From positions 958,415-1,022,414 of the forward strand of contig NZ_AP023418.1 of NCBI RefSeq assembly GCF_018408575.1: 64,000 nt of DNA. Direction: 5' to 3'. Below, in pieces: positions 34,531 through 51,660 of this stretch. The notes beneath the pieces are model-generated. The model was given only the letters and a program-made list of their open reading frames with translations, had not been told where the DNA came from and did no database searches. The translations under genes and the position numbers were made by a program. This DNA comes from Vescimonas coprocola. GTDB taxonomy: Bacteria; Bacillota; Clostridia; Oscillospirales; Oscillospiraceae. The first letter of the stretch is position 1. The number at the start of each line of letters is the position of its first letter.

Positions 34531-36258
34531 ATGTCTTATATGCAGGAATATGAAAAGTGGCTGGCATCCCCTGCCCTGAGCGAGCAGGAGCACGCCGAGC
34601 TGGAGAGCATCCGGGACGATGAGAAGGAGATCCGGGAGCGGTTCTATGGGCCGCTGGAATTCGGTACCGCCGGTCTGCGTGGCACCATGAAGGTGGGCCT
34701 GCACCAGATGAACATCCACGTCATCCGCTGGGCCACTCAGGGCTTTGCCAACGTCATCTGCGCTGAGGGCGAGGAGGCCAAGGGCCGGGGCGTGGCCCTG
34801 TGCATGGACTGCCGCAACCACTCTATGGAGTTTGCCAGAGCCGCCGCAGAGGTCTGCGCCGCCAACGGCATCCATGTGCGTATCTTCGAGTCGCTGCGGC
34901 CCACGCCGGAGCTGAGCTTCGCCGTGCGGGAATACGACTGTCAGGCGGGCATCAATGTCACCGCCAGCCACAATCCCAAGGAGTATAACGGCTATAAGGT
35001 CTACTGGTCTGACGGCGCCCAGCTGCCGCCCCAGCACGCTGCCGCCATTGCCCGTGAGCTGGAGCAGATCGACATTTTCACCGGCATCCGCCGGATGGAG
35101 TTTGACGATGCCAAGGCCCAGGGCCTCATCGAGATCATGGGTGCCGAGACGGACGAACGGTTCATGTCCCACGTCATGGCCATGGTCAACGACCGGGAGT
35201 CCATGGCCAAGGTGGCCGATACCTTCCATATGGTCTATACCCCCTTCCACGGCTGCGGCTGGAAGCTGGTACCGGAGGCGCTGCGGGGTCTGGGCGTGAA
35301 GCATCTGCACTGCGTTCCGGAGCAGATGGTGCTGGACGGCAACTTCCCCACGGTGGTCTCCCCCAATCCGGAGAACCCGGAGGGCTTCTATCTGGCCATC
35401 CAGCTGGCGGACAAGGTGGGCGCCGACTTCATTCTGGGCACCGACCCGGACAGCGACCGGGTGGGCATCATGGTTCGCAGCCGGGACGGCTCCTTCATCC
35501 CCGTCACCGGCAACCAGACGGGCGTTCTGATGCTGGATTACCTCATCGGGGCCATGCGCCGGGCAGGCAAGCTGCCGGAGCATCCCTACTTCCTCAAGAC
35601 CATCGTCACCACGGAGATGGCCCGGAAGGTGGCCGAGGCCAACGGCGTTACCTGCTGCGATACCTTCACCGGCTTCAAGTTCATGGCGGAGAAGAAGAAC
35701 CAGCTGGAATCCCAAGGGTTGGGCCATGTGATCATGAGCTACGAGGAGAGTTACGGTTATATGCTGGGCGACTATGTCCGGGATAAGGACGCCGTTACCG
35801 CCTCCCTGATCCTGACGGAGATGGCGGCGTGGTATGCCGTGCAGGGCATGACCCTGTTCGATGCGCTGGAGGCCCTGTACCGGAAGTACGGCTTCTACGG
35901 CGAAAAGACCCATAATCTGGTGATGCCGGGTCTGGACGGGCTGGAGAAGATGGCGGCACTGATGAAGTCCCTGCGGGCCGCTCCCCCCACCCACATCGCC
36001 GGGGTAGAGGTGCTGCGCCGCAAGGACTACACCGACGGCAGCGTCATCGACTGCCGCACCGGCGAAAAGACCGCTATGGAACTCTCCGGCAGCAATGTGC
36101 TGCGGTATGAGCTGGCGGACGGCACTACCATTCTGGTGCGGCCCTCCGGCACGGAGCCTAAGATCAAGGTCTACATTCTCACCATCGGCAAGGATGAGAC
36201 GGGGCGGGACGAGAATCTGGCCAAGTACAGCCAGTGGGTCGCCACGCTGACAAAGTAA
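34531..36258 (+). CDS. Phosphoglucomutase/phosphomannomutase
   Basis: A 575-residue alpha-D-phosphohexomutase. The four domain motifs are present: substrate entry FGTAGLRGTMKVG (near 45), the phosphoserine loop NVTASHNPKEYNGYK (Ser near 147), the metal loop GTDPDSDRVG (near 308) and the phosphate-binding RPSGTEPKIKVY (near 540). The 575-residue length matches the PgcA type that interconverts glucose 1- and 6-phosphates. GAAAGGAGC precedes the ATG. Confidence 0.93.
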   Translation: MSYMQEYEKWLASPALSEQEHAELESIRDDEKEIRERFYGPLEFGTAGLRGTMKVGLHQMNIHVIRWATQGFANVICAEGEEAKGRGVALCMDCRNHSMEFARAAAEVCAANGIHVRIFESLRPTPELSFAVREYDCQAGINVTASHNPKEYNGYKVYWSDGAQLPPQHAAAIARELEQIDIFTGIRRMEFDDAKAQGLIEIMGAETDERFMSHVMAMVNDRESMAKVADTFHMVYTPFHGCGWKLVPEALRGLGVKHLHCVPEQMVLDGNFPTVVSPNPENPEGFYLAIQLADKVGADFILGTDPDSDRVGIMVRSRDGSFIPVTGNQTGVLMLDYLIGAMRRAGKLPEHPYFLKTIVTTEMARKVAEANGVTCCDTFTGFKFMAEKKNQLESQGLGHVIMSYEESYGYMLGDYVRDKDAVTASLILTEMAAWYAVQGMTLFDALEALYRKYGFYGEKTHNLVMPGLDGLEKMAALMKSLRAAPPTHIAGVEVLRRKDYTDGSVIDCRTGEKTAMELSGSNVLRYELADGTTILVRPSGTEPKIKVYILTIGKDETGRDENLAKYSQWVATLTK

Positions 36259-36328
36259 CAGGAACGATAAAAAGAGGCGGTGCGGCTATGTCCCCCCCCT
36301 CACAGGGGGAACAAGTGATCCCCAGGAT

Positions 36329-36367
36329 ACCCCGGCAGGTCATCGTGTTTACGATGCCTGCCGGGGT
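36329..36367. terminator. Terminator after the phosphosugar mutase
   Basis: ACCCCGGCAGG-T-CATCGT pairs with ACGATG-CCTGCCGGGGT around GTTT, with one bulged T. It overlaps the 3' end of the recombinase fragment and followed by TTCTCT, so the tail is weak. Confidence 0.65.
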
Positions 36368-36645
36368 TTCTCTGTGTCCTGGGGTTCTGGTGCTTCCAGT
36401 GCTTCTTCCACATCCTGCTGACCACTGCCGACATAGCCAATGCCGTTGTAGTAAATCTCCACGGTCTGGGGCGCGTGTTTAGACCACGTTACCTCTTTCT
36501 TGTGGACCACGATCCTCTCAATGAACGGCCACAGCAACTCTGGTGCCAGCGCCGTGATATCCGTGTACCGCTTTGCTTTATCAAGGAAGCTGTCCGTCCC
36601 GTTCACGGTTTCCCGCAGGCGCTGGATCTCTCTCTTTCTGTGGAA
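36349..36645 (-). pseudogene. Large serine recombinase, C-terminal fragment
   Basis: Reading leftward, the frame REIQRLRETVNGTDSFLDKA-KRYTDITALAPELLWPFIER-IVVHKK matches the C-terminal coiled coil and DUF4368 domain of the TnpX/resolvase family found on conjugative and mobilisable transposons. It ends QTVEIYYNGIGYV plus an acidic tail, as those proteins do. The catalytic serine domain (about 300 N-terminal residues) is gone, and sequence upstream of about 36645 is unrelated. It marks a former integration at the left edge of the accessory island. Confidence 0.75.
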
Positions 36646-36961
36646 TACCGGTGGCGTTTCCCGCCCCACACGGGTGTTCTCCCACTCCGGCGGGCAAAGG
36701 ATGCCAGCAGGTGTGAAAGAAGGCTGCACGGGGCCAACATGGGTAGTTATCGCCCAACCGCTTTCGGCAATGTTACCCAAAGCGGTTCTCGACTTCTGCG
36801 TAGCCCCCTCACTATCCCTCCCGAAAAAACAGCGTGGTGAGTAACCAGAAATTAAAAATTTCTACAAAAAATTGATGGTATAGGGTGTTTCATTGACCCC
36901 CTGCCGCCGAAATTGAGGGTGTCTGACAGCCCCCCCTCATCATAGATAATTCGCACAAAAA

Positions 36962-36998
36962 ATCAGCGGACAGACCCTTGCAAAGTCTGTCCGCTGAT
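36962..36998. repeat. Perfect 14-bp hairpin
   Basis: ATCAGCGGACAGAC (36962-36975) and GTCTGTCCGCTGAT (36985-36998) pair perfectly across a 9-base loop. No U-run follows. It is longer than the neighbouring array units and may be a different element or a terminator relic. Confidence 0.6.
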
Positions 36999-37035
36999 GG
37001 TAACATGCAACAAATTACGGAAGGAAGCATGGAAC

Positions 37036-37273
37036 ATGATGCATGCTTTTTTGATGCTGGGAGTGACGCTGCCTGGCGGGCTCGTCCGTCTGATGCAGGC
37101 GCTGCGGCTGTCTGTACCGCTGCCTGTATGGGGCACTGGCAGTTACCGTGTCTCGTCCATGGTATCTGGCTCACACCACGCCGGCGGATGGTATTTTCTT
37201 CGTACTGGCGGGACTTGCAGCATTGTCCTGGGTGGTGTCCCTGATCTGTGTGGCGCGGGAAATGGTCGTGTGA
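37036..37273 (+). pseudogene. Possible frameshifted small membrane protein
   Basis: One frame starts MMHAFLMLGVTLPGGLVRLM. After a shift near 37100 another frame continues LYRCLYGALAVTVSRPWYLA and ends in a hydrophobic helix FFVLAGLAALSWVVSLICVA and a stop at 37273. Joined, these would give a protein of about 80 residues with two membrane segments. Neither half belongs to a family I recognise. It may be a relic of the element that brought the recombinase fragment. Confidence 0.35.
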
Positions 37274-37814
37274 TGATAAGGTTTGGCAAGATTGCCAAAC
37301 CTTACTTTTAGACGACTTTGCCAAAAAGTAATATCGGGTTCGGTGAATTCAGCGAACCCGATATTTTATGCTTTGCACGTGAAGAAATACTTTAGAATGC
37401 GAGGCATCGTTTTTTTGAGAACGGGTTTTGCAGCATTGTCAAACCCGTTTTTCGGCGGCTGCCGCTTGTGACAAGATTGTCTGCAGCGCTTTCGTGCAGT
37501 CCGCTGTGATCGGGTTTGGCAATATGGGCGAACCCGATTCTGCGCCCTCACCTTCTGGCAACGTTGCCGAGAAGTTTCCGCCCGCAGGCGGCATGGTTGA
37601 CTGGGGATTTCCCCAGCAAGCGCATTTGTCATACAAACGCTATGCTTGCGCCAGCGAAAGCAAACCCGGTATGGGAGTTTTTCATTTTATAGCGACAGAT
37701 AATTCATCAGAAATTGTAATAAGCCTGTAGGAAAGATTGTTTTGAAACTGCAATAAGCCGGAGAGCAATTTGTTGACTTTACAAAAAGCTGATGGGATCA
37801 AGGCAGACAATCAA

Positions 37815-38456
37815 TTACTGAGCTTCTAACTTGCTCACATCCAAAATCCTGTAGCGGCTGCGACCAACGTGCTCCAAAATACCCTTGTCGCAGAAGGAAC
37901 GAAGTGTCCGCAGCAGATGCCGTTGACTGGTTTCCAGTACGTCAGCGCAAAGTCTGGTGTTGTAGCCGAAGTAACCATCTTTTTGCTCCCGCAGAATAAA
38001 CTGAGCTAATCTGGTTGGCAGCTGTTCATAGTGAATGAAATTTTTCCTGATATGCTCTGCCAGATACGAGCAGGCGTAGTTGAGAAACTTTGTATCTTGG
38101 TGAAGCGCCTCCCCGTATAGATCCACGGAAAGACTCAGACACAGGCAGGGGGTCAGCGCTTCAATGGTGTTAATGGCGGGCTTATTCCAAAGAGCGGAAG
38201 TAAGTCCTAAAATGTTAGGACTCTGATACTGCAGCTCGCAGTGCAGTTTTCCGCTTTTAGAAACGCTGGAGGCTATGAGTGCCCCATCCGCCAACAGCTG
38301 GATCTCCGGATAGATCTCACCGCTGTGGCACAGGGTTTCTCCTGCCTCACAACGCAGCAGGACAGAGCATTTCTCCAGATCAAGCGAGAAATACTCTTGA
38401 AAATGGTGTTTTTCTATCAGTGCGCATTTCAGCGCAGGATCGTTCAACTGGATCAT
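37815..38456 (-). CDS. Crp/Fnr-family regulator (YeiL-like) of the peptide island
   Basis: A 213-residue regulator. The beta-roll domain occupies about residues 15-120 (LRCEAGETLCHSGEIYPEIQ, a GELHCE-like strand) and the helix-turn-helix is FGYNTRLCADVLETSQRHLL followed by RTLRSFCDKGILEHVGRSRY. Overall pattern is that of YeiL/PrfA-like Crp/Fnr proteins rather than cAMP-binding CRP; no Fe-S cysteine cluster is seen. The second ATG (38456) is 9 bases after AAAGGA; the first (38465) abuts it. It is divergent from the peptide transporter run and is its probable regulator. Confidence 0.88.
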   Translation of the reverse strand: MIQLNDPALKCALIEKHHFQEYFSLDLEKCSVLLRCEAGETLCHSGEIYPEIQLLADGALIASSVSKSGKLHCELQYQSPNILGLTSALWNKPAINTIEALTPCLCLSLSVDLYGEALHQDTKFLNYACSYLAEHIRKNFIHYEQLPTRLAQFILREQKDGYFGYNTRLCADVLETSQRHLLRTLRSFCDKGILEHVGRSRYRILDVSKLEAQ

Positions 38457-38699
38457 AGCAAACATTCCTTTAGAAGGTGCAAAAGTAATCGTTTTCTTCT
38501 TGTGCAGCCATATTTCTTAGTAATAGTAAAGATAACATAGGTTTATAAAAAAGTAAAGGGATGACAAAACATTATCTTTGGAGAAACAAAAAGTGGGCAT
38601 TTGTCCTTGAAGAAAAGACAAATTTTGGGAAGTCCTTTTGTTTGCACGCCCGCATCAAAAATTCCGGGGAAACCGCAAAAAAGTTCGGCGAAAAGAACG

Positions 38700-38740
38700 T
38701 GACATATGTCATTTATTTTTAGCCGTCAGAGAACTATGAT
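38700..38740 (+). promoter_or_regulatory. Activator-type promoter with TGACATATGTCA palindrome
   Basis: A perfect 12-bp palindrome TGACATATGTCA (38700-38711) lies upstream of TATGAT (38735-38740). The -35 position 17 bases before it (TTTATT) is poor. With a start near 38747 the palindrome is centred at about -41.5, the class II position of Crp/Fnr activators. The regulator encoded divergently is the obvious candidate. The rest of 38466-38873 holds no gene. Confidence 0.65.
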
Positions 38741-38873
38741 AGCAAAAATTAATTTTAAGTTTAGTGTTGCAAAGCGGTAAAGTGTTAAAGCGTTTGAAAG
38801 CTCAAGCGCGAGGCTGAAATGCATTGATTCCGTTTAGAAGTGGAAATGAACAGAGGAAAGGTGGGTATCAACA

Positions 38874-39863
38874 ATGTCAACACAGGTACAATTCAAGGAT
38901 TACAGCATGGGTTTTAAGGACGATGACGGAAAGGTCTACAACCTGATCGACCATCTGAATATGCAGTTGGACGAAGGAAAGGCTTTGGGAATCGTAGGTG
39001 AATCCGGCTGCGGCAAAAGCATGACCAGCCTTTCTCTGATGCGGCTTCTGCCGGCTGCGGCCTCTGTACAGGGAGGAGAGATCCTGCTCAATGGAGAGGA
39101 TCTGCTGAAAAAGTCTGAGCCGGAGATGGAAAAGATCCGGGGAAAGCAGATCGCAATGATCTTTCAGGAGCCAATGACAGCGCTGAATCCAGTCATGACA
39201 ATCGGCAAGCAGATTGGCGAATGTCTGAAGCTGCACCATCCGGAAATGAAGGAAGATGAGATTCGGAAACAGGTCTGTGAGGCGCTGAATGATGTGGGCA
39301 TTGCCAATCCAGAGACCCGGATCAATCAATATCCGCATGAATTTTCCGGCGGTATGCGCCAGCGGGTAATGATTGCCATGGCCATTATCAACCATCCCGC
39401 CATACTGATTGCCGACGAACCGACCACCGCATTGGATGTAACGATCCAGGCGCAGATCCTGGATATCATGCGCCGCCTGAAGGGATCCTCCGGCAGTCTG
39501 ATGCTGATTACGCACAATCTGGGGATCGTGGCAGAGATCTGCGAGGAGGTGGTGGTGATGTATGCGGGCCGTGCCATTGAGCGTGGCACACTGAAAGCGA
39601 TTTTCGACAACCCGCTGCATCCCTACACCCAGGGACTGATGGCCTCCGTACCTACTATGCGCAGTGAAAAGAAGCCGCTCTACACCATACCCGGCACTGT
39701 GCCTACTGTGTATGATTTTAAGGAGGGGTGTCGGTTTGCGGATCGCTGCCAACACTGCACGGAGGAGTGCCGCACCAAAATTCCACCGGTAAAGCGGGTG
39801 GGAGAAGACCATATCGTTCAATGCTGGATGAACTTTGAAGGGGAGGAACCGTACCATGAGTGA
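38874..39863 (+). CDS. Dipeptide/oligopeptide ABC transporter ATPase (DppD-like)
   Basis: A 329-residue ATP-binding subunit. Walker A GESGCGKS is at residues 42-49, the signature FSGGMRQRVMIAMA near 155, Walker B ILIADEPTTALD near 180. The C-terminal oligopeptide-transporter extension has a Cys-rich GCRFADRCQHC...C motif, typical of the DppD/OppD family. GGAAAGGTGG precedes the ATG. It starts the nine-gene run and overlaps the next ATPase by eight bases. Confidence 0.95.
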   Translation: MSTQVQFKDYSMGFKDDDGKVYNLIDHLNMQLDEGKALGIVGESGCGKSMTSLSLMRLLPAAASVQGGEILLNGEDLLKKSEPEMEKIRGKQIAMIFQEPMTALNPVMTIGKQIGECLKLHHPEMKEDEIRKQVCEALNDVGIANPETRINQYPHEFSGGMRQRVMIAMAIINHPAILIADEPTTALDVTIQAQILDIMRRLKGSSGSLMLITHNLGIVAEICEEVVVMYAGRAIERGTLKAIFDNPLHPYTQGLMASVPTMRSEKKPLYTIPGTVPTVYDFKEGCRFADRCQHCTEECRTKIPPVKRVGEDHIVQCWMNFEGEEPYHE

Positions 39864-40851
39864 AAAAAAGGAAACCCCCATTTTGAAAGCAGAACATCTG
39901 ACTAAGATGTTCCCTGTGAAAAAGCGAAAGCTGATTGAAAAACAGAGATACGTGCACGCCGCAGAGGATGTCAGTTTCGAAGTCTATCCCGGCGAGGTGC
40001 TGGGAATCGTGGGAGAATCCGGTTCCGGTAAGTCCACGTTGGCCCGAACGATCCTTGCGCTGACGCCCTCCACCTCTGGGCAGGTGTTTTATCAAGGAGA
40101 GGACATTACGGACTTCAAAGTATCTGCCGGCGAAAAGCGTCGCCTGCGCAGCGAAATACAGATGATCTTTCAGGATCCCTACGCCAGCCTGAACCCAAAA
40201 ATCAAGATCGGCAATGCGATCGCCGAGCCAATGCTGCTTCACGGTCAGGCATCCAGTTATGCTGAGGCAAAGGAAAAGATCCAGCACCTGTTGGAAGTCG
40301 TGGGGCTGCAGCCTGCGGTGTTCGACCGATATCCCCATGAGTTCTCAGGCGGTCAGCGGCAGCGTATCGGCATCGTCCGGGCCTTGGCGGTGAATCCAAA
40401 GCTGATTTTTTGCGATGAGTCCGTTTCCGCACTGGATGTTTCCGTACAGGCACAGATTTTGAACCTGTTTCAAAGTCTGAAGGAGCAGTTTCATCTGACT
40501 TATGTGTTCATTGGCCATGATTTGGCTGTGGTTCGCTATATCAGCGACCGGGTCATGGTGATGTACTTGGGCAAGGTCATGGAGATCGCCCCGTACAGTG
40601 AACTGACGGGGGACGATATCCACCCATATACCCGGGCTCTGCTTTCCGCTGTACCGGAACCCAGCATTGCGCTCCACAAGGAGCGGATCCTGCTGGAGGG
40701 AGATATTCCCAGCGCAGTAGATCCTCCGGCAGGCTGCCGATTCTGCCAACGCTGCTTCATGGCAAAGCCCATTTGTTTCGAGCAGGAGCCGGATATGAAA
40801 ACGGTGGGGACTGATCACTGCGTGCGCTGTCACTTTGCAAAGGAGGGTTGA
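39856..40851 (+). CDS. Dipeptide/oligopeptide ABC transporter ATPase (DppF-like)
   Basis: A 331-residue second ATPase of the pair. Walker A GESGSGKS lies near residues 54-61, the signature EFSGGQRQRIGIVRALA near 165 and Walker B IFCDESVSALDVS near 188. The C-terminal Cys-rich segment (GCRFCQRC...C) is present. DppD and DppF normally form a heterodimer powering the permeases. The start at 39856 follows GAGGAACC within the end of the preceding gene. Confidence 0.95.
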   Translation: MSEKKETPILKAEHLTKMFPVKKRKLIEKQRYVHAAEDVSFEVYPGEVLGIVGESGSGKSTLARTILALTPSTSGQVFYQGEDITDFKVSAGEKRRLRSEIQMIFQDPYASLNPKIKIGNAIAEPMLLHGQASSYAEAKEKIQHLLEVVGLQPAVFDRYPHEFSGGQRQRIGIVRALAVNPKLIFCDESVSALDVSVQAQILNLFQSLKEQFHLTYVFIGHDLAVVRYISDRVMVMYLGKVMEIAPYSELTGDDIHPYTRALLSAVPEPSIALHKERILLEGDIPSAVDPPAGCRFCQRCFMAKPICFEQEPDMKTVGTDHCVRCHFAKEG

Positions 40852-40854
40852 TCC

Positions 40855-41817
40855 ATGGTTCGTTATCTTCTGAAACGTCTCGGGCGGGGTATTCTGACGA
40901 TCCTGCTCTCCGTGACGCTGGTATTCTTTATTGTCCGTGCTATGCCCTCCAATCCCGTAGATCTGATGGTCAGTCCCCAGATGTCCGAGGAGGCGCAGCA
41001 GGCGCTGATCGAGGAGTTCGGCCTGGACCAGTCGAAGCTGACCCAGTACGGCCTCTATATGAAGGAATTGCTTCATGGCAACCTGGGAAGCAGCTTTGCC
41101 AAGCGAATTCCGGTTTCCCAGTATATTGCGGAAAAGCTGCCTTGGACGCTGCTGCTTTTGGCGGCAGTCATGCTGATCGTCATTCTGATTGGCATCAGCG
41201 TGGGCTTGTACGCAGCAGCCCACAAAGGAAAACTTTCGGACCGGGTCATCAGCGTGCTGGTGACGATGGGAATATCTGTATTCATTCCATTTATGGCGTT
41301 CCTACTGTTGTACCTTTTTTCCTTTAAGCTGAAGCTGCTGCCTACCGGCGGCGCATATACGCCGCCCAAGGGCACCGGCTGGTCTTATTACGGCGACGTT
41401 GCCAAGCATCTGATCCTTCCCGCCATCGCCCTGTCCATCACCAACCTTGCCAATGCGGTGCTGTATACCCGCAACAGCATGATCGATGTGCTGCATGAGG
41501 ACTATATTCGCACCGCTTACGCCAAGGGAAATAACAAGGGGCGTGTACTTCGTGTCCATGCGCTGAAAAACGCACTGATCCCCACTGTGACGGTCATCGG
41601 TATGCAGATCGGATTCATGGTAGGCGGCGCCACGGTAACGGAAACGGTATTCTCTTGGCCGGGCATCGGTCGGATGGTCTATGACGCTGTGAATGCACTG
41701 GATTACCCGGTGCTTCAGGGTGCGTTTCTTGTGATGGCGGTAGCCGTGGTAATCATGAGTTTTCTCACTGACCTTGTGGTCGCTTGGCTGGATCCCCGAA
41801 TCAAGCTAGGAGGTTGA
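40855..41817 (+). CDS. Peptide ABC transporter permease (DppB-like)
   Basis: A 320-residue inner-membrane permease with six predicted helices. The N-terminus MVRYLLKRLGRGILTILLSV is typical of DppB/OppB, and the EAA loop that docks the ATPases is in YIRTAYAKGNNKGRVLRVHA near 222. It begins three bases after the DppF stop, and pairs with the DppC-like permease that follows. Confidence 0.94.
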   Translation: MVRYLLKRLGRGILTILLSVTLVFFIVRAMPSNPVDLMVSPQMSEEAQQALIEEFGLDQSKLTQYGLYMKELLHGNLGSSFAKRIPVSQYIAEKLPWTLLLLAAVMLIVILIGISVGLYAAAHKGKLSDRVISVLVTMGISVFIPFMAFLLLYLFSFKLKLLPTGGAYTPPKGTGWSYYGDVAKHLILPAIALSITNLANAVLYTRNSMIDVLHEDYIRTAYAKGNNKGRVLRVHALKNALIPTVTVIGMQIGFMVGGATVTETVFSWPGIGRMVYDAVNALDYPVLQGAFLVMAVAVVIMSFLTDLVVAWLDPRIKLGG

Positions 41818-41819
41818 TT

Positions 41820-42665
41820 ATGAAAGAACGAAAAGGCTTCCTCTATTATTTTGTACGTAATCGCAACGGTATGATCGGTATGATCGGCGTCTTGCTGATT
41901 CTGCTGATCGGTCTGGTGGGGCCGATGCTGATCGCCAAACCAGATGGCTACACGCAGGATATTCTTCAGGCTCCCAGCGCTCTGCACTGGCTGGGGACCG
42001 ACAACATTGGTCTGGATATTTTTGCAGAACTGGTCTGGGGTGCTCGCACCTCGCTGTACGTTTCCGTTATGGCTATGCTCATTGCCGGCGTGATCGGCAT
42101 ACCGGTGGGCCTGCTGTGCGGCTATAACACCGGCTGGCTCCGGGAAGTGATCGACGGCTTCATTGACATTTTTATGACGCTGCCCATGCTACCGCTGATG
42201 ATTATTATTGCGGCGGTAATGGGAACCTCTATTACCAACGTGGCGATCATCTTAGGTATATTCTCCTGGCCGCAGTTGGCCCGTGTAACGAAGAACAGCA
42301 CCATGAAGATCCGGGAGATGCAGTATATTGAGGCCTGCACCTGTCTGGGACTCTCCAAGCCTCGTATCCTCTTCAAACACATACTCATCAATGCTACCGG
42401 CCCGGTGTTCGTCAATATGACACTGGTGATGGCCTCCGCCGTGTTGACGGAAGCCAGCCTGAGCTTTCTTGGCTTGGGTGATCCGACCACTTGGAGCTGG
42501 GGGACCATGCTCAAGCGGGCGTGGGGGCAGAACGCCGTGATCAGCTCCCCCAATCCCTGGTGGTGGTGGCTGCTGCCCAGCTTGTGCATCGTCGTGTATG
42601 TGGTTTGCTTCAATTTGCTGGGAACGGCCATCAATGACAGTCTCAGCCCTAAATCCAGAGAGTGA
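41820..42665 (+). CDS. Peptide ABC transporter permease (DppC-like)
   Basis: A 281-residue permease. The OppC-type N-terminal helix is near 15-35 (RNGMIGMIGVLLILLIGLVG), followed by the conserved HWLGTDNIGLDIFAELVWGA. The EAA loop is EMQYIEACTCLGLSKPRILF near 175. It starts two bases after the DppB stop with AGGAGG just upstream. Confidence 0.94.
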   Translation: MKERKGFLYYFVRNRNGMIGMIGVLLILLIGLVGPMLIAKPDGYTQDILQAPSALHWLGTDNIGLDIFAELVWGARTSLYVSVMAMLIAGVIGIPVGLLCGYNTGWLREVIDGFIDIFMTLPMLPLMIIIAAVMGTSITNVAIILGIFSWPQLARVTKNSTMKIREMQYIEACTCLGLSKPRILFKHILINATGPVFVNMTLVMASAVLTEASLSFLGLGDPTTWSWGTMLKRAWGQNAVISSPNPWWWWLLPSLCIVVYVVCFNLLGTAINDSLSPKSRE

Positions 42666-42685
42666 TTAGAAAGGAGTAGAAACGT

Positions 42686-44305
42686 ATGTATGATTATCTG
42701 ATTAAAAACGGCTTGGTAGTGGATGGCTCCGGAAAGCCTGCTGTTAAAGCGGATGTTGCGGTAAAGGGTGACAAGGTAGCCCGTATTGCCCCTGATATTC
42801 AGGAGCCTGCTGCCGAGGTATACGATGCCGCCGGCAAATACGTGATTCCCGGCCTTATCGACCCCCACGTTCATGAGGAATGGTATTGCTTTGACGATGG
42901 GCGCTATGAGTCCTATATCCGTCAGGGCGTGACCACGCTGGTGAACGGCAATTGCAGCCACAGCATTACACCCGGACATAAAAAGGAAGTATTGGACTAT
43001 TATCTGGGAAACGGCCTTGTGGGACTGAAGCAGTATCAGCGCTATCTGCGGGACTGGCCCGACTGGCATGATTTTGAGGGGTATGCTCAGGCCGTGGAAC
43101 AGGTGGGAACCAACTGCAACTTTGTCACCCTGTTGGGCCACGGCAGTATCCGCCAGTATGTGATGCATGGTGCCTATAACCGGGCACCGGACGAGCTGGA
43201 GCAGGCACAAATCGAAAATATCATCCGCCACAACATGGATCAGGGCGCTTGGGGTATTTCCTTCGGTCTGGACTATGTCCCCAGCCGGTATGCCTCTATG
43301 GAGGAACTGTGCAATGTAGTCAGTCAGATCAAACGATATGACGCAGTTTCCGCAGCCCATCTCCGCCACCAGATCGGTATTCCCGAGTCTACTGCGGAAT
43401 TCTGCGAGGTGGGCCGCCGCACCGGTGCCAAGATCCAGATCTCCCATCTGGCTTCCGCTGTGCCCGAGGCATACGACATTGCTCTGAAAGCCATCGAAGA
43501 AGACGGCGTTCGCGCCCGGATCGATGTGATTCCCAGCAGTGTGGGACACTGCACCGGCAAGGAGCGGATGCTGCTGTTCACCATGGCCCTCAGTGACGAG
43601 CTGTTCAGTCAGGGCATTGAGGGTGTTAAGAGGGCGCTGCATACGCCTGAGGGCCGGGCAATGATCAAGAAGGACAACTATACCTTTGCCGGTCCTAAGG
43701 ACAAGGTTTACATCGTCAACTCCGATGATCCGCATCTGGAAAACCGGTCTGTCCGGGATATTGCGCAGGAGCGGGGCATCGATGAGGATGACTGCATGCT
43801 GGATCTGCTGGGGGATGAGAAGAACTATGTGTTCTGGCTCAACGCACCCGCCGCCAATGTGCCCAGCAACTTCATCGACCACTGTGAATCCATCGTGAAG
43901 AATCCCTATGTTTCCGTAGGCAGCGACACCATCATGGGAGATCCCGCAGATCCTTACGATTGGTACGAGATCCGACGCCGGGGCGGGTTCGCCATCTTCG
44001 CCCAGATGTATGTGGGCAAGGGCGTTCCCTATGAAGAGGTTGTCCGCAGAAATACCAGCATGGTGGCCGATCACTTCGGCATCTATAAGCGGGGCCGTCT
44101 GGTGGAAGGCAATTACGCCGATATCGCCGTGATCGATCTGCCCAACTACCGGTATCCGGAGATGGATCAGATGCAGTACAAAACACCGCAGATGAATGCC
44201 ACCGGCTGCGATCTGGTGCTATGCAACGGCAAGGTCGAACTGAAAGACGGTGACCTGCTGAGAACCTACGCAGGTCGTGTCCTTCGGAAAAATGCTCAGG
44301 GCTGA
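42686..44305 (+). CDS. N-acyl-D-amino-acid deacylase-like amidohydrolase
   Basis: A 539-residue amidohydrolase of the D-aminoacylase family. Metal motif HVH at residues 61-63 (GLIDPHVHEEWY), the family Cys in VNGNCSHSITP (near 90) and the later metal histidines in AAHLRHQ and ISHLAS. An aspartate in SVGSDTIMGD (near 413) fits the catalytic acid. Relatives cleave N-acyl-D-amino acids or dipeptides with a C-terminal D-residue. Lying between permeases and binding protein, it probably acts on the imported solute. No signal peptide, so cytoplasmic. AAAGGAG precedes the ATG. Confidence 0.85.
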   Translation: MYDYLIKNGLVVDGSGKPAVKADVAVKGDKVARIAPDIQEPAAEVYDAAGKYVIPGLIDPHVHEEWYCFDDGRYESYIRQGVTTLVNGNCSHSITPGHKKEVLDYYLGNGLVGLKQYQRYLRDWPDWHDFEGYAQAVEQVGTNCNFVTLLGHGSIRQYVMHGAYNRAPDELEQAQIENIIRHNMDQGAWGISFGLDYVPSRYASMEELCNVVSQIKRYDAVSAAHLRHQIGIPESTAEFCEVGRRTGAKIQISHLASAVPEAYDIALKAIEEDGVRARIDVIPSSVGHCTGKERMLLFTMALSDELFSQGIEGVKRALHTPEGRAMIKKDNYTFAGPKDKVYIVNSDDPHLENRSVRDIAQERGIDEDDCMLDLLGDEKNYVFWLNAPAANVPSNFIDHCESIVKNPYVSVGSDTIMGDPADPYDWYEIRRRGGFAIFAQMYVGKGVPYEEVVRRNTSMVADHFGIYKRGRLVEGNYADIAVIDLPNYRYPEMDQMQYKTPQMNATGCDLVLCNGKVELKDGDLLRTYAGRVLRKNAQG

Positions 44306-44371
44306 GTGTCAGCCCAATCAATTTCAAACGTTGCAGTGAAGCTGTGATGAAATATTACTGGAGGTAACAAT

Positions 44372-45988
44372 ATGAAAAAATTTCTTGCACTCGTGCTGTC
44401 TCTCTGCCTGGTGCTTTCCCTGGCAGCCTGCGGCGGAAAGACGGCGGATGATGACACTGGCGAAGGTTCCAAGACCGGCGGCACCATACAGGTGGGCCTG
44501 AACAGCGCTCCCGTGAGCATGAATATCTGGTGTCAGAATGACCTGAATTCTGCAACCATCATGAATCTGGTCTGCCCCAACCTCGTTGCCATTGATGATG
44601 ACGGCAACAAGTATGACTATTTGACTGAGTCCTCCGAGTCCAACGAGGACTGCACCGTCTGGACCATCAAGCTGAAGGAACTCTACTGGAATGATGGTAC
44701 CCCCGTCACTTCTGCGGATCTGCTGTTCACCGCCAAGTACGGTGTGGAGCATCACATCGGCTTCTTCGACAGCTACTATGGTCTGGTGGATTTTGAAAAG
44801 TCCTCCTGCCCGGATGAGCGCACCGTGGAATTTGCTCTGACTTCCGGAAACGTGAACTTCTGGAAGGGCGCCGGCAACTGGATACCCGTGATGCGTGAGA
44901 GCGAGTGGTCCTCTGTGGAAGAGCCCACTACCTATTCTTACTCCGGCGCTGGTTACGGTCCCTACTATATTTCCGAGTGGGTGGACGGCGAGTATGTCAC
45001 TCTGAAGCGCAACCCCTATTTCACTCAGGCCAATGACGGTGCCGGAGCCTGCATTGATGAAGTGGTATTCCGCGTGTACACCGACGAGAATGCTATGGTG
45101 CTGGCCTTGCAGAACGGCGAGGTCGATGTCTGTGCCAACTTCCTCAGCGCATCTTCCATTTCTCAGCTGCAGAGCAACTCCAACTATCAGATCGAATCTG
45201 TTGGCTCCCTTGGCTATACGCTCATCACCTTCTCTCAGACCAACGAACTGCTGCAGGATGTGAATGTTCGTAAGGCCCTGGCCGCCAGCTGCGACCGTGA
45301 GGCTCTGGTAAACGTGGCCATGTCCGGCGCTGCAACGCCGATGTACACGCCTATCAGCCCCGTTTACAGTGACTTTACCGCTTCCAACATCCGTCAGCCT
45401 GAGTTTGATACCGCTGCTGCCGCCTCCATTTTGGAGAACGCCGGTTATGTGGATACCAACGGCGACGGCATCCGTGAAAGCGCCGATGGCAAGCCTCTGA
45501 GCTTCACCATTACCTACAAGGGCACGATGGCCAATGTGGACGGCATCATGTCCATTCTGTCCTCTGACTTTGCCAAGGCCGGCGTGGAATTGAAGCTGCA
45601 GCCTGTGGACGCCGCAACTTTCTCCGCCAACGTGACCCAGGGCCACAAGTATGACATCAGCTACAGCAGCTGGGGAACCATCGACGATGTGGATACCACC
45701 CTGCTGACGGTCTTCGGCATCGGCCAGACTCTGAACTTCATGGAGTTCAACAGTCAGGAGCAGGAGGATCTGCTGAATGCCATGCAGAGCGAAACCGACT
45801 ACAACAAGCGTTTGGAGCTGCTGAACCAATGGCAGACGTGGTTTGTGGAGAACCTGCCCTGCTGCCACCTGTTCGTGCCCAACAACACCTATGCCGCTGA
45901 CACCACCAACTTCACCGGCTGGCACCTGTCCCCCGGCAATAGCGCGTTCCTGGCCTGCGCCAACTTTGTCAACGTCCATGCGAAATAA
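44372..45988 (+). CDS. Peptide ABC transporter substrate-binding lipoprotein
   Basis: A 538-residue extracytoplasmic solute-binding protein of family 5 (DppA/OppA type). The signal peptide MKKFLALVLSLCLVLSLAAC ends in a lipobox with Cys at residue 20. The mature part has TSADLLFTAKYGVEHH and LKRNPYF with NVRKALAASCDREALV, all typical of the family. It captures the peptide and delivers it to the DppBC permease. GGAGG precedes the ATG. A terminator follows, so the dipeptidases may rely on read-through or their own promoter. Confidence 0.94.
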   Translation: MKKFLALVLSLCLVLSLAACGGKTADDDTGEGSKTGGTIQVGLNSAPVSMNIWCQNDLNSATIMNLVCPNLVAIDDDGNKYDYLTESSESNEDCTVWTIKLKELYWNDGTPVTSADLLFTAKYGVEHHIGFFDSYYGLVDFEKSSCPDERTVEFALTSGNVNFWKGAGNWIPVMRESEWSSVEEPTTYSYSGAGYGPYYISEWVDGEYVTLKRNPYFTQANDGAGACIDEVVFRVYTDENAMVLALQNGEVDVCANFLSASSISQLQSNSNYQIESVGSLGYTLITFSQTNELLQDVNVRKALAASCDREALVNVAMSGAATPMYTPISPVYSDFTASNIRQPEFDTAAAASILENAGYVDTNGDGIRESADGKPLSFTITYKGTMANVDGIMSILSSDFAKAGVELKLQPVDAATFSANVTQGHKYDISYSSWGTIDDVDTTLLTVFGIGQTLNFMEFNSQEQEDLLNAMQSETDYNKRLELLNQWQTWFVENLPCCHLFVPNNTYAADTTNFTGWHLSPGNSAFLACANFVNVHAK

Positions 45989-46026
45989 AGCACCCCTGCT
46001 GCTTCGTATGTAATGGTTGCATGGAG

Positions 46027-46059
46027 AGAGGGGGGCTCCTGCGGGAGCCCCCCTCTTTT
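46027..46059 (+). terminator. Hairpin after the binding protein gene
   Basis: AGAGGGGGGCTCC pairs with GGAGCCCCCCTCT around TGCG and is followed by TTTC. It may attenuate transcription into the dipeptidase genes. Confidence 0.75.
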
Positions 46060-46092
46060 CAAAAAAGATTATGAAGAAAGGTGTTTGAACTG

Positions 46093-47304
46093 ATGAACTT
46101 TGTACAAAAACCTGCTTATAAGGGTTATAAGGCTTATGAATATCTGGAAGAGGGCAAGGACTATCCAAAGATCGAATGGGCACAGTGGGACTGGGCCGGA
46201 CGCCATGTTGTAGAGCTGGAGCCGGATCAGGAAGCCATGGTGCAGGAGATCCTGAAGAAGCATCCTTACATCAGCCTTCACGATCACCCTACATTTTACC
46301 CAAAGGATATGTCCAGCATTGACCACATTTATGATTCCATGCGGCAGGGCCGTGCTGTCTGCGGTTATGAGGCACTGTCCTATTCCAATATTGACTGCAT
46401 CTTCGACAATATGATGGACGGTGTGAATATCATCTCCAGTCCCGGCGGCTGGAAGTGGATCGACATTATTCATGATCTGGGAATGCGGCTGTGCGACCTT
46501 GCTCATCAGGATTTTCTGATCCAGTGCAAGACGGTTGATGACATTTTTGCTGCCAAGAAGGCTGGCAAGATCGCCTGGGTGCCTTGCATTGAGGGCGCAG
46601 CTCCCATTGAAAATGAAGTGGATCGCATCGATATTCTCTACGGTCTGGGCGTCCGTCAGTTGGGCGTGACCTATTCTGAGAGCAACGCTTTGGGTAATGG
46701 CATGAAGGAGGATCACGACGGTGGCTTGACCATGTTCGGCAAGCAGTGCGTGGAGCGGATGAACAAGGTGGGTATGCTTATTGATGTGTCCCACTGTGGC
46801 CAGCAAACAGCCTATGACGCGGTCATGTATTCCAAGAAACCCATTATCATGAGCCACGTGGGCGCCAAGGGCGTATGGGACATTAAGCGTATGGCCGGCG
46901 ATGATCTCATTAAAGCCATCGGTTCCAAGGGCGGCGTGGTCGGTATTGAATCTGCCCCCCACACAACCATGTCCAAAACCAAGATGACCCATGATCTGGA
47001 CAGCGTGATGGAGCACTTCGAGTATGTGAAGAACCTGATCGGCATCGACCACGTTGGTTTTGGCGTGGACTGCCTGTACGGCGACCATGTGGGCGTACAC
47101 CACGCCTTTGCCGCTGCCCTGTCTACAGCGGAAACTGCGAATACCTCTTACGAGGAAGTGCCCTTCGTCTGGGGCCTGGAGAATCCCACAGAAGCCAGCT
47201 GGAACATCATCCGCTGGCTGGTAAAGCACAATTACAGCGAAGAGGACATCGGCAAGGTCATCGGCGGCAACGCCATCCGGGTGCTGCGGGAAGTCTGGGC
47301 CTGA
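46093..47304 (+). CDS. M19 (renal dipeptidase-type) peptidase, copy 1
   Basis: A 403-residue metallodipeptidase-fold protein of family M19. Ligand regions: ISLHDHPTF (near 66), a Glu in CIEGAAPIENEVDRI (near 170), His in MLIDVSHCG (near 235) and MSHVGAKGV (near 257), and Asp in GIDHVGFGVD. The family usually has HxD at the first site; here it is HDH. M19 enzymes cleave dipeptides, often with a C-terminal D-residue, and cyclic or beta-lactam-like amides. No signal peptide. The ATG at 46093 is preferred because a GTG at 46081 abuts the ribosome binding site AAGAAAGG. Confidence 0.9.
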   Translation: MNFVQKPAYKGYKAYEYLEEGKDYPKIEWAQWDWAGRHVVELEPDQEAMVQEILKKHPYISLHDHPTFYPKDMSSIDHIYDSMRQGRAVCGYEALSYSNIDCIFDNMMDGVNIISSPGGWKWIDIIHDLGMRLCDLAHQDFLIQCKTVDDIFAAKKAGKIAWVPCIEGAAPIENEVDRIDILYGLGVRQLGVTYSESNALGNGMKEDHDGGLTMFGKQCVERMNKVGMLIDVSHCGQQTAYDAVMYSKKPIIMSHVGAKGVWDIKRMAGDDLIKAIGSKGGVVGIESAPHTTMSKTKMTHDLDSVMEHFEYVKNLIGIDHVGFGVDCLYGDHVGVHHAFAAALSTAETANTSYEEVPFVWGLENPTEASWNIIRWLVKHNYSEEDIGKVIGGNAIRVLREVWA

Positions 47305-47331
47305 CCGTTCTGCTGAACAGGAGCAAATTGT

Positions 47332-48549
47332 ATGGAATTTCAACTGAAGAAAGGGTATCGCCCCTATGAGGCGTATCAGTATCTTGAGCCGGGAAGGGAT
47401 TTTAAGGTCATTGACTGGGCGGACTGGGACTGGGCCGGTCGAAACGTCCTGCCCTTGAATCCGGAAGAAGAGGCCCGGTGCAGGGAACTGCTGGAAAGAA
47501 CGCCCTACGTCAGCCTCCACGATCATCCGGACTTTACCACACGGGATATGTCCACCTGTGAACCGCTGTTTGACGCCATGCGGACTGGCCGGGACCGCTG
47601 CGGATATGAGGCGCTGGCCTATTCCAACATCGACTGTATCTTCGATAATATGATGGACGGCACCAACATTATTTCCAGTCCTAACGGTTGGAAGTGGATC
47701 GACATCATTCATGATCTGGGGATGCGGCTGTGTGACCTGGCCCATCAGGATTTTATTGTCCATTGTAAAACCGTGGACGATATCTTTGCCGCAAAAAAAG
47801 AGGGCAAGATCGCCATGGTGTTTGTGATCGAGGGAGCTGCTCCCATTGAAAACGAGGTGGACCGCATTGACATCCTGTATGGATTGGGCGTCCGCCAACT
47901 GGGCGTGACTTATTCCGAGAGCAATGCATTGGGGAGCGGCTGCAAGGAGGACCACGACGGCGGGCTGACCATGTTCGGCAAGCAATGCGTGGAGCGGATG
48001 AACAAGGTGGGTATGCTTATTGATGTGTCCCACTGCGGCTCTCAGACCGCTTATGATGCGGTGGTCCATTCCACCAAGCCCATTATTATGAGCCATACCG
48101 GAGCGAAGGGTGTTTGGAACACAAAGCGCCTTGCAAGCGACGAATTGATTCAAGCCATTGCTGCCAAAGGCGGTGTGGTCGGTATCGAGGCTGCCCCACA
48201 CACCACCATGTCAAAGACCCGTATGACCCACGATATTGACAGTTACATGGAGCACTTCGAATATGTAAAGAATCTGGTGGGCATCGACCATGTGGGATTC
48301 GGCGTGGACTGTATGTACGGCGACCACGTGGGTCTGCATCACGCTTTTGCCGCAGCCCTGTCTACCGGGGATACTTCCAAAACCACGGTGCCTTATCAGG
48401 AGGTTCCCTTTGTGAAGTATCTGGAAAATCCGACTGAGGCAAGCTGGAATATTCCCAGATGGCTCATCAAACACGGTTATACGGACGAGGAAATTATCAA
48501 GGTGCTGGGCGGCAATGCCATCCGGGTGCTGCGAGAAGTCTGGTCCTAA
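47332..48549 (+). CDS. M19 (renal dipeptidase-type) peptidase, copy 2
   Basis: A 405-residue paralogue of the preceding gene, aligning over its whole length. VSLHDHPDF, VIEGAAPIENEVDRI, LIDVSHCGSQT and MSHTGAKGV are conserved. It differs most in the first 35 residues (KKGYRPYEAYQYLEPGRDFK) and around 95-115, regions likely to shape the substrate pocket, so specificity may differ. CAGGAGC precedes the ATG, 27 bases after copy 1. Conversion between copies is suggested by nearly identical central segments. Confidence 0.9.
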   Translation: MEFQLKKGYRPYEAYQYLEPGRDFKVIDWADWDWAGRNVLPLNPEEEARCRELLERTPYVSLHDHPDFTTRDMSTCEPLFDAMRTGRDRCGYEALAYSNIDCIFDNMMDGTNIISSPNGWKWIDIIHDLGMRLCDLAHQDFIVHCKTVDDIFAAKKEGKIAMVFVIEGAAPIENEVDRIDILYGLGVRQLGVTYSESNALGSGCKEDHDGGLTMFGKQCVERMNKVGMLIDVSHCGSQTAYDAVVHSTKPIIMSHTGAKGVWNTKRLASDELIQAIAAKGGVVGIEAAPHTTMSKTRMTHDIDSYMEHFEYVKNLVGIDHVGFGVDCMYGDHVGLHHAFAAALSTGDTSKTTVPYQEVPFVKYLENPTEASWNIPRWLIKHGYTDEEIIKVLGGNAIRVLREVWS

Positions 48550-48574
48550 TTAAAAACAGAAAGGAAACCATGCA

Positions 48575-49792
48575 ATGGAGTACAAAATGAAGCCTGCCTA
48601 TAAAGGCTACAAAGCATATGAGTATCTGGAGGAGGGAAAGGATTTCCCCAAATTTGAGTGGGCCGACTGGGACTGGGCCGGCCGCCATGTAGTAGAGCTG
48701 GAACCGGAGCAGGAGGCTCGTGTTGCGGAGCTGCTGGCAAAATATCCCTATGTCAGCGTCCATGATCATCCGACTCTGTTCCCGAAGGACGTTACCAGCA
48801 AGCAGAATATCGACAATGTGATGCGCAACGGCCGGGAGATGACCGCTTATGAAGCACTGGCCTATTCAAATATCGACTGCGTATTCGATAACCAGCTGGA
48901 CGGTGTGAATATCATCTCCAGTCCCGGCGGCTGGAAGTGGATCGACATCATTCACGATCTGGGTATGCGGCTGTGCGATCTGGCTCATCAGGATTTTATT
49001 ATCCATTGTAAGACCGTGGATGACATTTTTGCCGCCAAGAAGGCTGGAAAGATCGCTATGGTATTTGTGGTGGAGGGAGCCGCTCCTATTGAAAACGAGG
49101 TAGACCGCATTGATATTCTCTACGGCTTGGGCGTCCGCCAGCTGGGTGTGACCTATTCCGAAAGCAATGCGCTGGGCAACGGCTGCAAGGAGGTCCATGA
49201 CGGCGGCCTGACCATGTTCGGCAAGCAGTGCGTAGAGCGAATGAACAAGGTGGGTATGCTCATTGACGTATCCCACTGCGGCCCTCAGACTGCTTATGAT
49301 GCAATCACCTATTCCAAGAAGCCGATCATTATGAGCCATGTAGGTGCAAAAGGCGTGTGGAACACCAAGCGGATGGCCAGCGATGAGATGATTCAGGCCG
49401 TTGCTGTCAAGGGCGGCGTGGTCGGCATTGAGGCCGCTCCCCACACCACTATGTCCAAAACCAAGATGACCCACGATCTGGACAGCTTTATGGAGCACTT
49501 TGAATATGTGAAAAACATGGTGGGCATCGACCATGTGGGCTTTGGCGTGGATTGCCTGTACGGTGATCACGTGGGCGTGCATCATGCCTTTGCACAGGCA
49601 CTGTCCATCGCCGCCACCTCCAAGACCGGTGCGGAGTATGAAGAGGTCCCCTATGTGAAGTATCTGGAGAACCCCACCGAATCCAGCTGGAACATTATCC
49701 GCTGGCTGGTAAAGCACAACTACAGCGATGAGGATATTGCCAAGGTCATCGGCGGTAACGCCATCCGGGTGCTGCAGGAAGTCTGGGCCTGA
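48575..49792 (+). CDS. M19 (renal dipeptidase-type) peptidase, copy 3
   Basis: A 405-residue third paralogue, closer to copy 1 in its N-terminus (MKPAYKGYKAYEYLEEGKDF). The metal and active-site segments VSVHDHPTLF, VVEGAAPIENEVDRI, LIDVSHCGPQT and MSHVGAKGV are retained. AAAGGA precedes the ATG and the gap to copy 2 is 25 bases. A perfect 19-bp hairpin closes the run at 49936-49979. Three adjacent copies with the same predicted metal site suggest a widened substrate range or dosage. Confidence 0.9.
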   Translation: MEYKMKPAYKGYKAYEYLEEGKDFPKFEWADWDWAGRHVVELEPEQEARVAELLAKYPYVSVHDHPTLFPKDVTSKQNIDNVMRNGREMTAYEALAYSNIDCVFDNQLDGVNIISSPGGWKWIDIIHDLGMRLCDLAHQDFIIHCKTVDDIFAAKKAGKIAMVFVVEGAAPIENEVDRIDILYGLGVRQLGVTYSESNALGNGCKEVHDGGLTMFGKQCVERMNKVGMLIDVSHCGPQTAYDAITYSKKPIIMSHVGAKGVWNTKRMASDEMIQAVAVKGGVVGIEAAPHTTMSKTKMTHDLDSFMEHFEYVKNMVGIDHVGFGVDCLYGDHVGVHHAFAQALSIAATSKTGAEYEEVPYVKYLENPTESSWNIIRWLVKHNYSDEDIAKVIGGNAIRVLQEVWA

Positions 49793-49935
49793 TGCGAAAA
49801 CGGATGCAGGCAGCAGACTGTTTTTAGAAATATCCGAGTCGATCATTTCCCACGTTGACCGCTATTCGTGTGTCTACCATAAGGAATCGAAATTGATAAA
49901 ATGCTAACCTGAAAGCTGCAAGTCCTTTATTGATC

Positions 49936-49979
49936 AAATCGGCGGCAATATACCTAATGAGGTATATTGCCGCCGATTT
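49936..49979 (+). terminator. Strong terminator of the peptide island
   Basis: A perfect 19-bp stem (49936-49954 with 49961-49979) around TAATGA, ending in ATTTAT. The bases before it, 49793-49935, hold no gene. Confidence 0.85.
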
Positions 49980-50073
49980 ATATGCTCTGAACGCAATTCA
50001 TGTTGTCCTTGTGCGTGGATAACTTATGCCGCACCGTCTCTTTTTATCTTGTAGGAAGCCTTCCTCATCCCGG

Positions 50074-51549
50074 TCACAGGGCCTGTGGGCGGGACTCCAG
50101 CAGCTCACGGGCGCAGGAGCGGACCGTCTCCTCTTCGTCGTAGGGGATCTTCTTCCCCTGCACCAGCTGGTAGCCCTCCCGGCCCTTGCCGCACAGCAGC
50201 AGCATATCGCCGGGACGCATCTGCTCCAGCGCATAGCGCACCGCCTCCCGGCGGTCCACAATACCCACATGGGGGCAGCTGCCGGGGCCGAAGCAGGTGG
50301 CAATGTCCGCAATGACCTCCGCCGGGTCGTCCCGATCCGGGTCGTCGGTGGTAATAATGGCCAAATCGGCCCCCTTGGCCACTGCCTCCCCCAGCTGGTG
50401 GCGGCGCACTCTGGTGCGGCCGCCGGTGCCGAACACGGCGATGATGCGAGCCGGATCGTAGCTGCGGGCCGTTTGCAGCAGGGCGTTCATGCTGATGGAG
50501 TTATGGGCAAAATCCAGCACTACGGTACATCCCGGCATCACGTCCGGCAGCACCTCGAACCGGCCCGGCACCGTCACATAGCTGAGGGCCTCCGCCAACT
50601 CGCAGGTGCGGTCCGTATAACGCCCCACCAGTGCCACCACCGCCAGAGCGTTGTAGACGTTGTACTCCCCCGGCATCCGAATGTGGTAGGTAGTGCCGGC
50701 CGCCGTGAACTCCATACCGAACAGGTCCCCGGCCTTCAGGATGTTCACTCTCTCCGCCCGGAGATCCGCCGGACGGTGAATGGCATAGGTGCTCTTTTCG
50801 CAGGGACTGCCCGCCATCATGTACTCCGCCTCCGGGTCGTCGGCGTTGAAGATGCCGTGGCGGCACTGGGCGAACAGCCGCTTCTTGCTGTCCCGGTAGT
50901 GGGCATAGTCCGGGTGCTCCTCGGTGCCGATGTGGTCCGGGGAGAGGTTTGTGAACACCGCCGTATCGAAGGTGATGCCGTCCACCCGGTGGCGGGCCAG
51001 CGCCTGAGAGGACACCTCCATCACCACATACCGGACGCCCTCGTCCCGCATGGCCCGAAACAGCCGCATCAGCTCGTAGCTCTCCGGTGTGGTATTGCTG
51101 GTTCCCACGTGCTTCCCGGCGTAGGCGGCCCCGTTGGAGCCGATGACGCCGCAGGACAAGCCCATGCGGTTCATGACGGAGCAGGCCGTCTCCGCCACGG
51201 TGGTCTTGCCCTTGGTGCCGGTGACGCCGATGATGGTCACATCCCGCTGGGGAAAGCCAAAAAACGCCGCCGAGATCTGCGCCAGCGCCTGACGGGCATC
51301 CGATACCCGCACCACGTCCGCATCCTCCGGCACGTCCAGCGTCCCCTCGCTGACGAAACAGCGGCAGCCCTGTGCATAGGCCGCCGGCGCAAAGTCCTCT
51401 CCGTTGGAACGGGCGCCCCGCAGACAGAAAAACAGGCTCCCGGTCTGCGCCTTCCGGGAGTCGTAGGTCAGCGCCGTGATCTCCTCTTCTCCGCAACCGC
51501 CGGATAGTAACTGCACGCCGGAGCGCTCCAGCAGGTCCTTTATCTTCAT
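50074..51549 (-). CDS. murE: UDP-MurNAc-dipeptide:amino acid ligase (MurE)
   Basis: A 491-residue Mur ligase adding the third residue of the peptidoglycan stem peptide. ATP loop GVTGTKGKTTVAET lies near 110-123, the substrate part TSNTTPESYELMRLF, the carbamylated-lysine region, and DFAHNSISM in the middle. The C-terminal motif that selects the amino acid reads TTDDPDRDDP, where DAP-adding enzymes have DNPR. The donor therefore cannot be set from the motif. The ATG at 51549 follows a G-rich stretch; a weak ribosome binding site is accepted. It is the first core gene after the island. Confidence 0.93.
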   Translation of the reverse strand: MKIKDLLERSGVQLLSGGCGEEEITALTYDSRKAQTGSLFFCLRGARSNGEDFAPAAYAQGCRCFVSEGTLDVPEDADVVRVSDARQALAQISAAFFGFPQRDVTIIGVTGTKGKTTVAETACSVMNRMGLSCGVIGSNGAAYAGKHVGTSNTTPESYELMRLFRAMRDEGVRYVVMEVSSQALARHRVDGITFDTAVFTNLSPDHIGTEEHPDYAHYRDSKKRLFAQCRHGIFNADDPEAEYMMAGSPCEKSTYAIHRPADLRAERVNILKAGDLFGMEFTAAGTTYHIRMPGEYNVYNALAVVALVGRYTDRTCELAEALSYVTVPGRFEVLPDVMPGCTVVLDFAHNSISMNALLQTARSYDPARIIAVFGTGGRTRVRRHQLGEAVAKGADLAIITTDDPDRDDPAEVIADIATCFGPGSCPHVGIVDRREAVRYALEQMRPGDMLLLCGKGREGYQLVQGKKIPYDEEETVRSCARELLESRPQAL

Positions 51550-51660
51550 GGGAAGGTCCCCCCTTTTATACAAGATAGGCGGCAGGACAAGACATCCCGC
51601 CGCCTATATTATACCAATAATTGTGCCGGATGCAACCTCTCCGGCGCAGAAAATCCGGCC

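Follow-up and report, generated by a model that had tools for sequence, protein, structure and literature searches.

Gene content and conservation of the locus

We analyzed a stretch of 64,000 nucleotides from Vescimonas coprocola (contig NZ_AP023418.1; the window), in which ten open genes at 37815-49792, a regulator and nine plus-strand genes, lie at the positions given in a prediction made earlier from the sequence alone (the original prediction). This had described a single block with a regulator, a complete Dpp-type importer, a hydrolase between the permeases and the binding protein and three tandem M19 enzymes, all of which is borne out by the open frames, their Pfam matches and their coordinates. 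The block is more than a chance arrangement, because its gene order is kept in 9 of 59 other loci and two of its enzyme clades co-occur in genomes of the class (p = 5e-10). Family calls were made at Pfam gathering scores and NCBIfam cut-offs. The features are the following:

36352-36780, minus strand: DUF4368 fragment, the C-terminal piece of a serine recombinase, debris (PF14287, 68.7 bits versus 25)
37815-38465, minus strand: divergent Crp/Fnr-type regulator (PF13545, 31.6 versus 27; PF00027, 27.6 versus 27.5)
38700-38711, no strand: palindrome TGACATATGTCA, candidate operator
38874-39863, plus strand: OppD-type ATPase (PF00005, PF08352)
39856-40851, plus strand: OppF-type ATPase (PF00005, PF08352)
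40855-41817, plus strand: permease B (PF00528, PF19300)
41820-42665, plus strand: permease C, PermC (PF00528, PF12911)
42686-44305, plus strand: amidohydrolase of D-aminoacylase fold with altered carboxylate anchor (PF07969, PF01979)
44372-45988, plus strand: family-5 solute-binding lipoprotein (PF00496, 230.5 bits; lipobox read by eye)
46081-47304, plus strand: M19-like enzyme a, HxH (PF01244)
47332-48549, plus strand: M19-like enzyme b, HxH (PF01244)
48575-49792, plus strand: M19-like enzyme c, HxH (PF01244; structure model)
49936-49979, plus strand: 20-pair hairpin, candidate transcription end (-34.8 kcal/mol, z -7.8)

By Pfam, the Dpp/Opp importer set is complete, with two ATPases, two permeases and a family-5 binding protein whose N terminus is lipoprotein-like. 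With the starts chosen here, which for OppF (39856), PermC (41820) and the first M19 gene (46081 or 46093) were preferred over the first ATG/GTG/TTG, the gaps among the nine plus-strand genes lie between -11 and 92 bases. Such tight packing of co-directional genes makes a single transcript likely. The hairpin 3' of the last M19 gene is perfect over its 20 pairs, and an Rfam scan returned 0 families at the gathering score.

To search for the same gene order in other genomes, as the original prediction had proposed, we scanned with the M19c protein and obtained 59 loci. The order OppD-OppF-PermB-PermC-hydrolase-binding protein-M19 recurred in nine of them (L024 to L029, L031, L038 and L039), with one extra gene inside the otherwise kept order of L031; a tenth locus, L047, carries hydrolase and M19 genes in a different order. 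In an even sample of 391 genomes of the class, the hydrolase clade was present in 6, the M19 clade in 6 and both in 5 (E<=1e-90), which corresponds to a Fisher p of 4.8e-10, or 2.6e-8 with the own genome excluded. The two genes lie within a few kb of each other in the own genome, G148, G266 and G424, and on separate contigs in G486. Judging from gene order, the operon is conserved as a unit elsewhere. Furthermore, 51 of the 59 fetched loci hold an importer gene beside the M19 clade (21 ABC, 30 SSS symporter), as expected for an enzyme acting on an imported solute.

The island as an acquired insertion

We compared the flanks of the block with 10 sister-species stretches. Phosphoglucomutase had matched in 28 other genomes of the genus, and the ten were fetched from among these, two of them being cut short by a contig end. 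In seven of the ten, an SGNH or DegV gene convergent to phosphoglucomutase follows it within 2.4 kb (<=0.5 kb in four of those seven). The exceptions are L093 and L096, which have neither neighbor, and L094, where DegV is in the opposite orientation. In the window, the distance from phosphoglucomutase to DegV is 15.4 kb, and the island sits between them. Its GC content (36300-50000) is 52.7%, compared to 60.9% in the parts of the window outside 36258-51661. In 119 related genomes, including 31 of the same genus, the search revealed no close copy of the first M19 protein; outside the own genome, the best match by E-value had 33% identity over residues 146-406. Since the island separates phosphoglucomutase from DegV and this protein has no close copy in the related genomes, the gene block is, by its sequence context, a horizontally acquired insertion.

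Recombinase debris had been predicted on both flanks. It is present on the left, as the DUF4368 fragment; this domain is the tail of large serine recombinases, which agrees with L116 and L117. On the right we saw none, and Pfam gave no family for 49998-50312, the one stretch of that flank submitted to it. An unverified fecal "Bacteriophage sp." scaffold of 5.7 kb (MT838069.1) is 98.6% identical to 37313-42635 and represents either another carrier strain or bacterial DNA within a virome set. This near-identical scaffold lacks the 577 bases at 36736-37312, and MT836419.1 (L116) holds an 82% copy of 36653-37360 adjoining a serine-recombinase-like frame. Because of these two observations, the 36736-37312 stretch may be a small mobile remnant. 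A plasmid origin of the island was considered and dropped, the matches being short ATPase pieces only, in 4 plasmid records.

Beyond the island, a second MurE gene lies at 50074-51573 on the minus strand, convergent to it; the other MurE of the genome is at C1:512976. The second gene has a GC content of 65%, which differs from that of the island, and matches in only 2 of the 31 other same-genus genomes (E<=1e-100, 42-43% identity).

Regulator and enzymes

Both the sensor and the Crp-type HTH domain of the regulator score above their Pfam cut-offs, the sensor (PF00027) narrowly. The only NCBIfam model that it matched was that of YeiL (NF007707, residues 8-214). However, its score of 79.8 bits is below the cut-off of that model (180), which places it outside the YeiL subfamily by this measure; it also differs in adjoining an importer operon. 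An orthologue of the regulator is present in five of the ten genomes having hydrolase and M19 genes. It adjoins OppD in all five, divergently in four and co-directionally in the genome of L028.

Between the regulator and the importer genes, TGACATATGTCA is the sole exact match to TGACWTATGTCA in the whole genome (2.56 Mb), and the backwards control gave zero. Among 100 loci scanned, TGACNTATGTCA was present in three (L026, L027 and L028), all with the regulator. For two further genomes, whose first loci ended before the site, a later fetch (L103 and L104) revealed it between the regulator and OppD, exact in L104 and with one mismatch in L103. The palindrome is thus found at this place in all five other genomes with the regulator, with one mismatch in one of them. 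At two mismatches, 0.35 chance matches are expected in L103 and 0.67 in L104, and with this expectation L103 is the weakest case for conservation of the site. An alignment of the whole intergenic region had been uninformative, and it was the palindrome scan that revealed the site. We infer that the regulator acts at TGACATATGTCA, its predicted operator. The candidate site shared with the regulator's orthologues is in agreement with the control by a divergent Crp/Fnr protein proposed originally.

The three M19-like enzymes match PF01244 with 222-230 bits (cut-off, 26), the match being confined to residues 137/141 to 402/404. The M19 family is canonically defined by an HxD pair of metal ligands, and HxD was found in 17 of 20 M19 proteins of relatives; three loci (L005, L012 and L016) had neither an HxD nor an HxH start and were not placed in set A3. 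In contrast, HxH occurs in all 72 rows of the island clade (>=90% length, partial copies in L080 and L081 not included; set A2 holds 48 of the 72) and in the five plasmid relatives read, out of eight with 46-54% identity. The clade therefore differs on strand 1 from the M19 dipeptidases 1itq, 3id7/3s2j, GliJ (5lwz) and 2i5g. By its title, the engineered GliJ D38H mutant (5lx4) carries a change like the natural one seen here. Profile alignment of the N terminus, whether local or forced global, failed to pair the HxH and HxD strands. The pairing is based instead on residue spacing, on the strand formed by residues 60-68 in the M19c structure model (pLDDT 87, M19 fold) and on a structural alignment with ends 44 to 1 (end residues only). 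The ligands of the clade are spaced 63-167-234-255, compared to 20-125-198-219 in renal dipeptidase, with the register partly from alignment.

The other ligands (E167, H234 and H255) and the catalytic D326, placed in register by alignment, are kept in 72 of 72 rows. Arg266 is likewise invariant and in register with renal dipeptidase Arg230. Tyr194 stands, in this register, where DPEP1 has His152. In a tree of 71 of the 72 rows, enzymes a, b and c each cluster with copies from other genomes; by this topology, they are long-separated copies. No signal peptide was visible by eye in any of the four metal hydrolases, which are therefore probably cytoplasmic.

The amidohydrolase retains the D-aminoacylase fold and metal set. 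In PMC12017989, the Lys, Tyr, Ser and Arg residues that anchor the alpha-carboxylate are described as strictly conserved in the D-aminoacylase group. Among the 11 sequences of the island hydrolase clade, Lys is kept in two and Tyr and Ser in none; for Arg, two alignments disagree. In six plasmid proteins serving as a yardstick, Tyr and Arg were present in 6/6, Lys in 5/6 and Ser in 3/6, three of the six being poor yardsticks as they have no Cys ligand. The clade thus differs from D-aminoacylase, N-acyl-D-glutamate deacylase and the OngB group (1m7j, 3gip, 9gv8 and 9kb1). With Lys replaced in 9/11 and Tyr and Ser in 11/11, the identity as an N-acyl-D-amino-acid deacylase suggested by the original prediction is not supported by the sequences. 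The idea of a bile-salt hydrolase was also dropped; PMC13081902 deals with a subgroup of amidohydrolases that share a conserved lysine. Judged by these residues, the block holds two unusual enzyme groups, an HxH M19-like one and one of D-aminoacylase fold without most of the carboxylate anchor.

Possible functions and significance

We think it probable, on sequence grounds, that the block is an inducible, horizontally acquired operon that scavenges a small solute, amide or dipeptide-like in nature. The regulator would act at its site in the presence of this solute, which the lipoprotein would capture and the importer would carry into the cell. There, the D-aminoacylase-fold enzyme would hydrolyze amides of one kind, and the three M19 copies would cleave dipeptides differing in their side chains, releasing amino acids. 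The importer belongs to the same families as E. coli dpp, opp and ddp, the last of which adjoins a dipeptidase gene (ddpX) by annotation. However, the island differs from them in its M19-like and D-aminoacylase-fold hydrolases and in its Crp/Fnr-type regulator.

Several observations weigh against this proposal. Consensus promoters and terminators did not exceed the level of shuffled sequence. No NCBIfam transporter model among the matches listed (for the ATPases, the best 25 of 186 and the best 25 of 189) reached its cut-off. In DppA and OppA, one Asp holds the peptide N terminus; in the island binding protein, unlike these, this residue is out of register, with Asp residues nearby and an uncertain alignment. 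Finally, in 49 of the 59 loci the fetched stretch, often a short one, holds the M19 clade but not this hydrolase, so that the two enzymes need not share a substrate.

Our estimates for the scavenging operon and for the first three alternatives that follow overlap. The original prediction had derived from family names a dedicated route for peptides containing D-residues and N-acyl-D-amino acids, which we regard as tentative and rather unlikely. What stands of it is the D-aminoacylase fold with its metals and the Asp/Glu/hydantoin-racemase-family gene that adjoins M19 in 6 of the 59 loci. This gene is beside M19 in G148, G211 and G266 but not in G424, G486 and G302, the other three of six genomes searched. 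PDB titles also list M19 relatives solved with L-Leu-D-Ala and L-Ala-D-Ala mimics. However, the family names do not hold as a basis: the anchor is mostly replaced, the M19 clade has HxH rather than HxD, and the window operon has no racemase gene. Moreover, 3neh, an M19 entry with a dipeptide mimic, has a printed title that begins L-L, indicating that the family is not D-only. The racemase genes of relatives keep the theme of chirality alive; dipeptides with a D-residue are plausible but unproven as a substrate class, and a function in D-peptide use is a reasonable guess rather than a finding. Two racemase-family proteins beside M19 (PF01177; L025:11221-11952 and L031:11211-11960) share 42% identity with two Cys aligned, and neither reached an NCBIfam cut-off. 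In the own genome, a racemase-family match recurs at almost equal offsets (C1:3278 and C2:3281), so that the second contig may duplicate the start of the first.

It is likewise doubtful that the block encodes an ordinary importer of L-dipeptides and dipeptidases of broad specificity, to which the hydrolase would be incidental. This reading would fit the general peptide families of the importer and binding protein, the many M19 loci without the hydrolase as far as they were fetched and the peptidase-type genes near the M19 clade in relatives (prolyl-iminopeptidase-type in 7 of the 59 loci, M24 in 3 and M28 in 2). The private regulator site and the repeated co-inheritance with the hydrolase, however, suggest a specific solute. 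TRAP transporter-like proteins were also noted by eye in L053, L055, L060, L062, L063, L064, L066, L068, L070 and L081. Catabolism of cyclic amides, in which the hydrolase would open diketopiperazines or hydantoins and M19 would cut the resulting dipeptides, seems improbable to us. We would give as little credence to a broader catabolic module, in which the natural-HxH M19 clade would be tied to the ABC or SSS importer of its host and joined in Firmicutes by a ring-opening (diketopiperazine/hydantoin) enzyme of D-aminoacylase fold; the M19 copies would then cut the dipeptides so formed, whatever their handedness, and some sister operons would add a racemase.

The original prediction knew of no description of this arrangement, and we found none in the open-license library searched. 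The operon is an acquired, conserved and separately regulated combination of known parts. The family names of both enzyme groups may mislead, as the annotations "membrane dipeptidase" and "D-aminoacylase" may conceal other activities. The carrier bacterium is related to gut anaerobes. Identification of the solute of the proposed scavenging operon would add a nutrient route for these bacteria and would reveal the role of a natural HxH site in the M19 fold.
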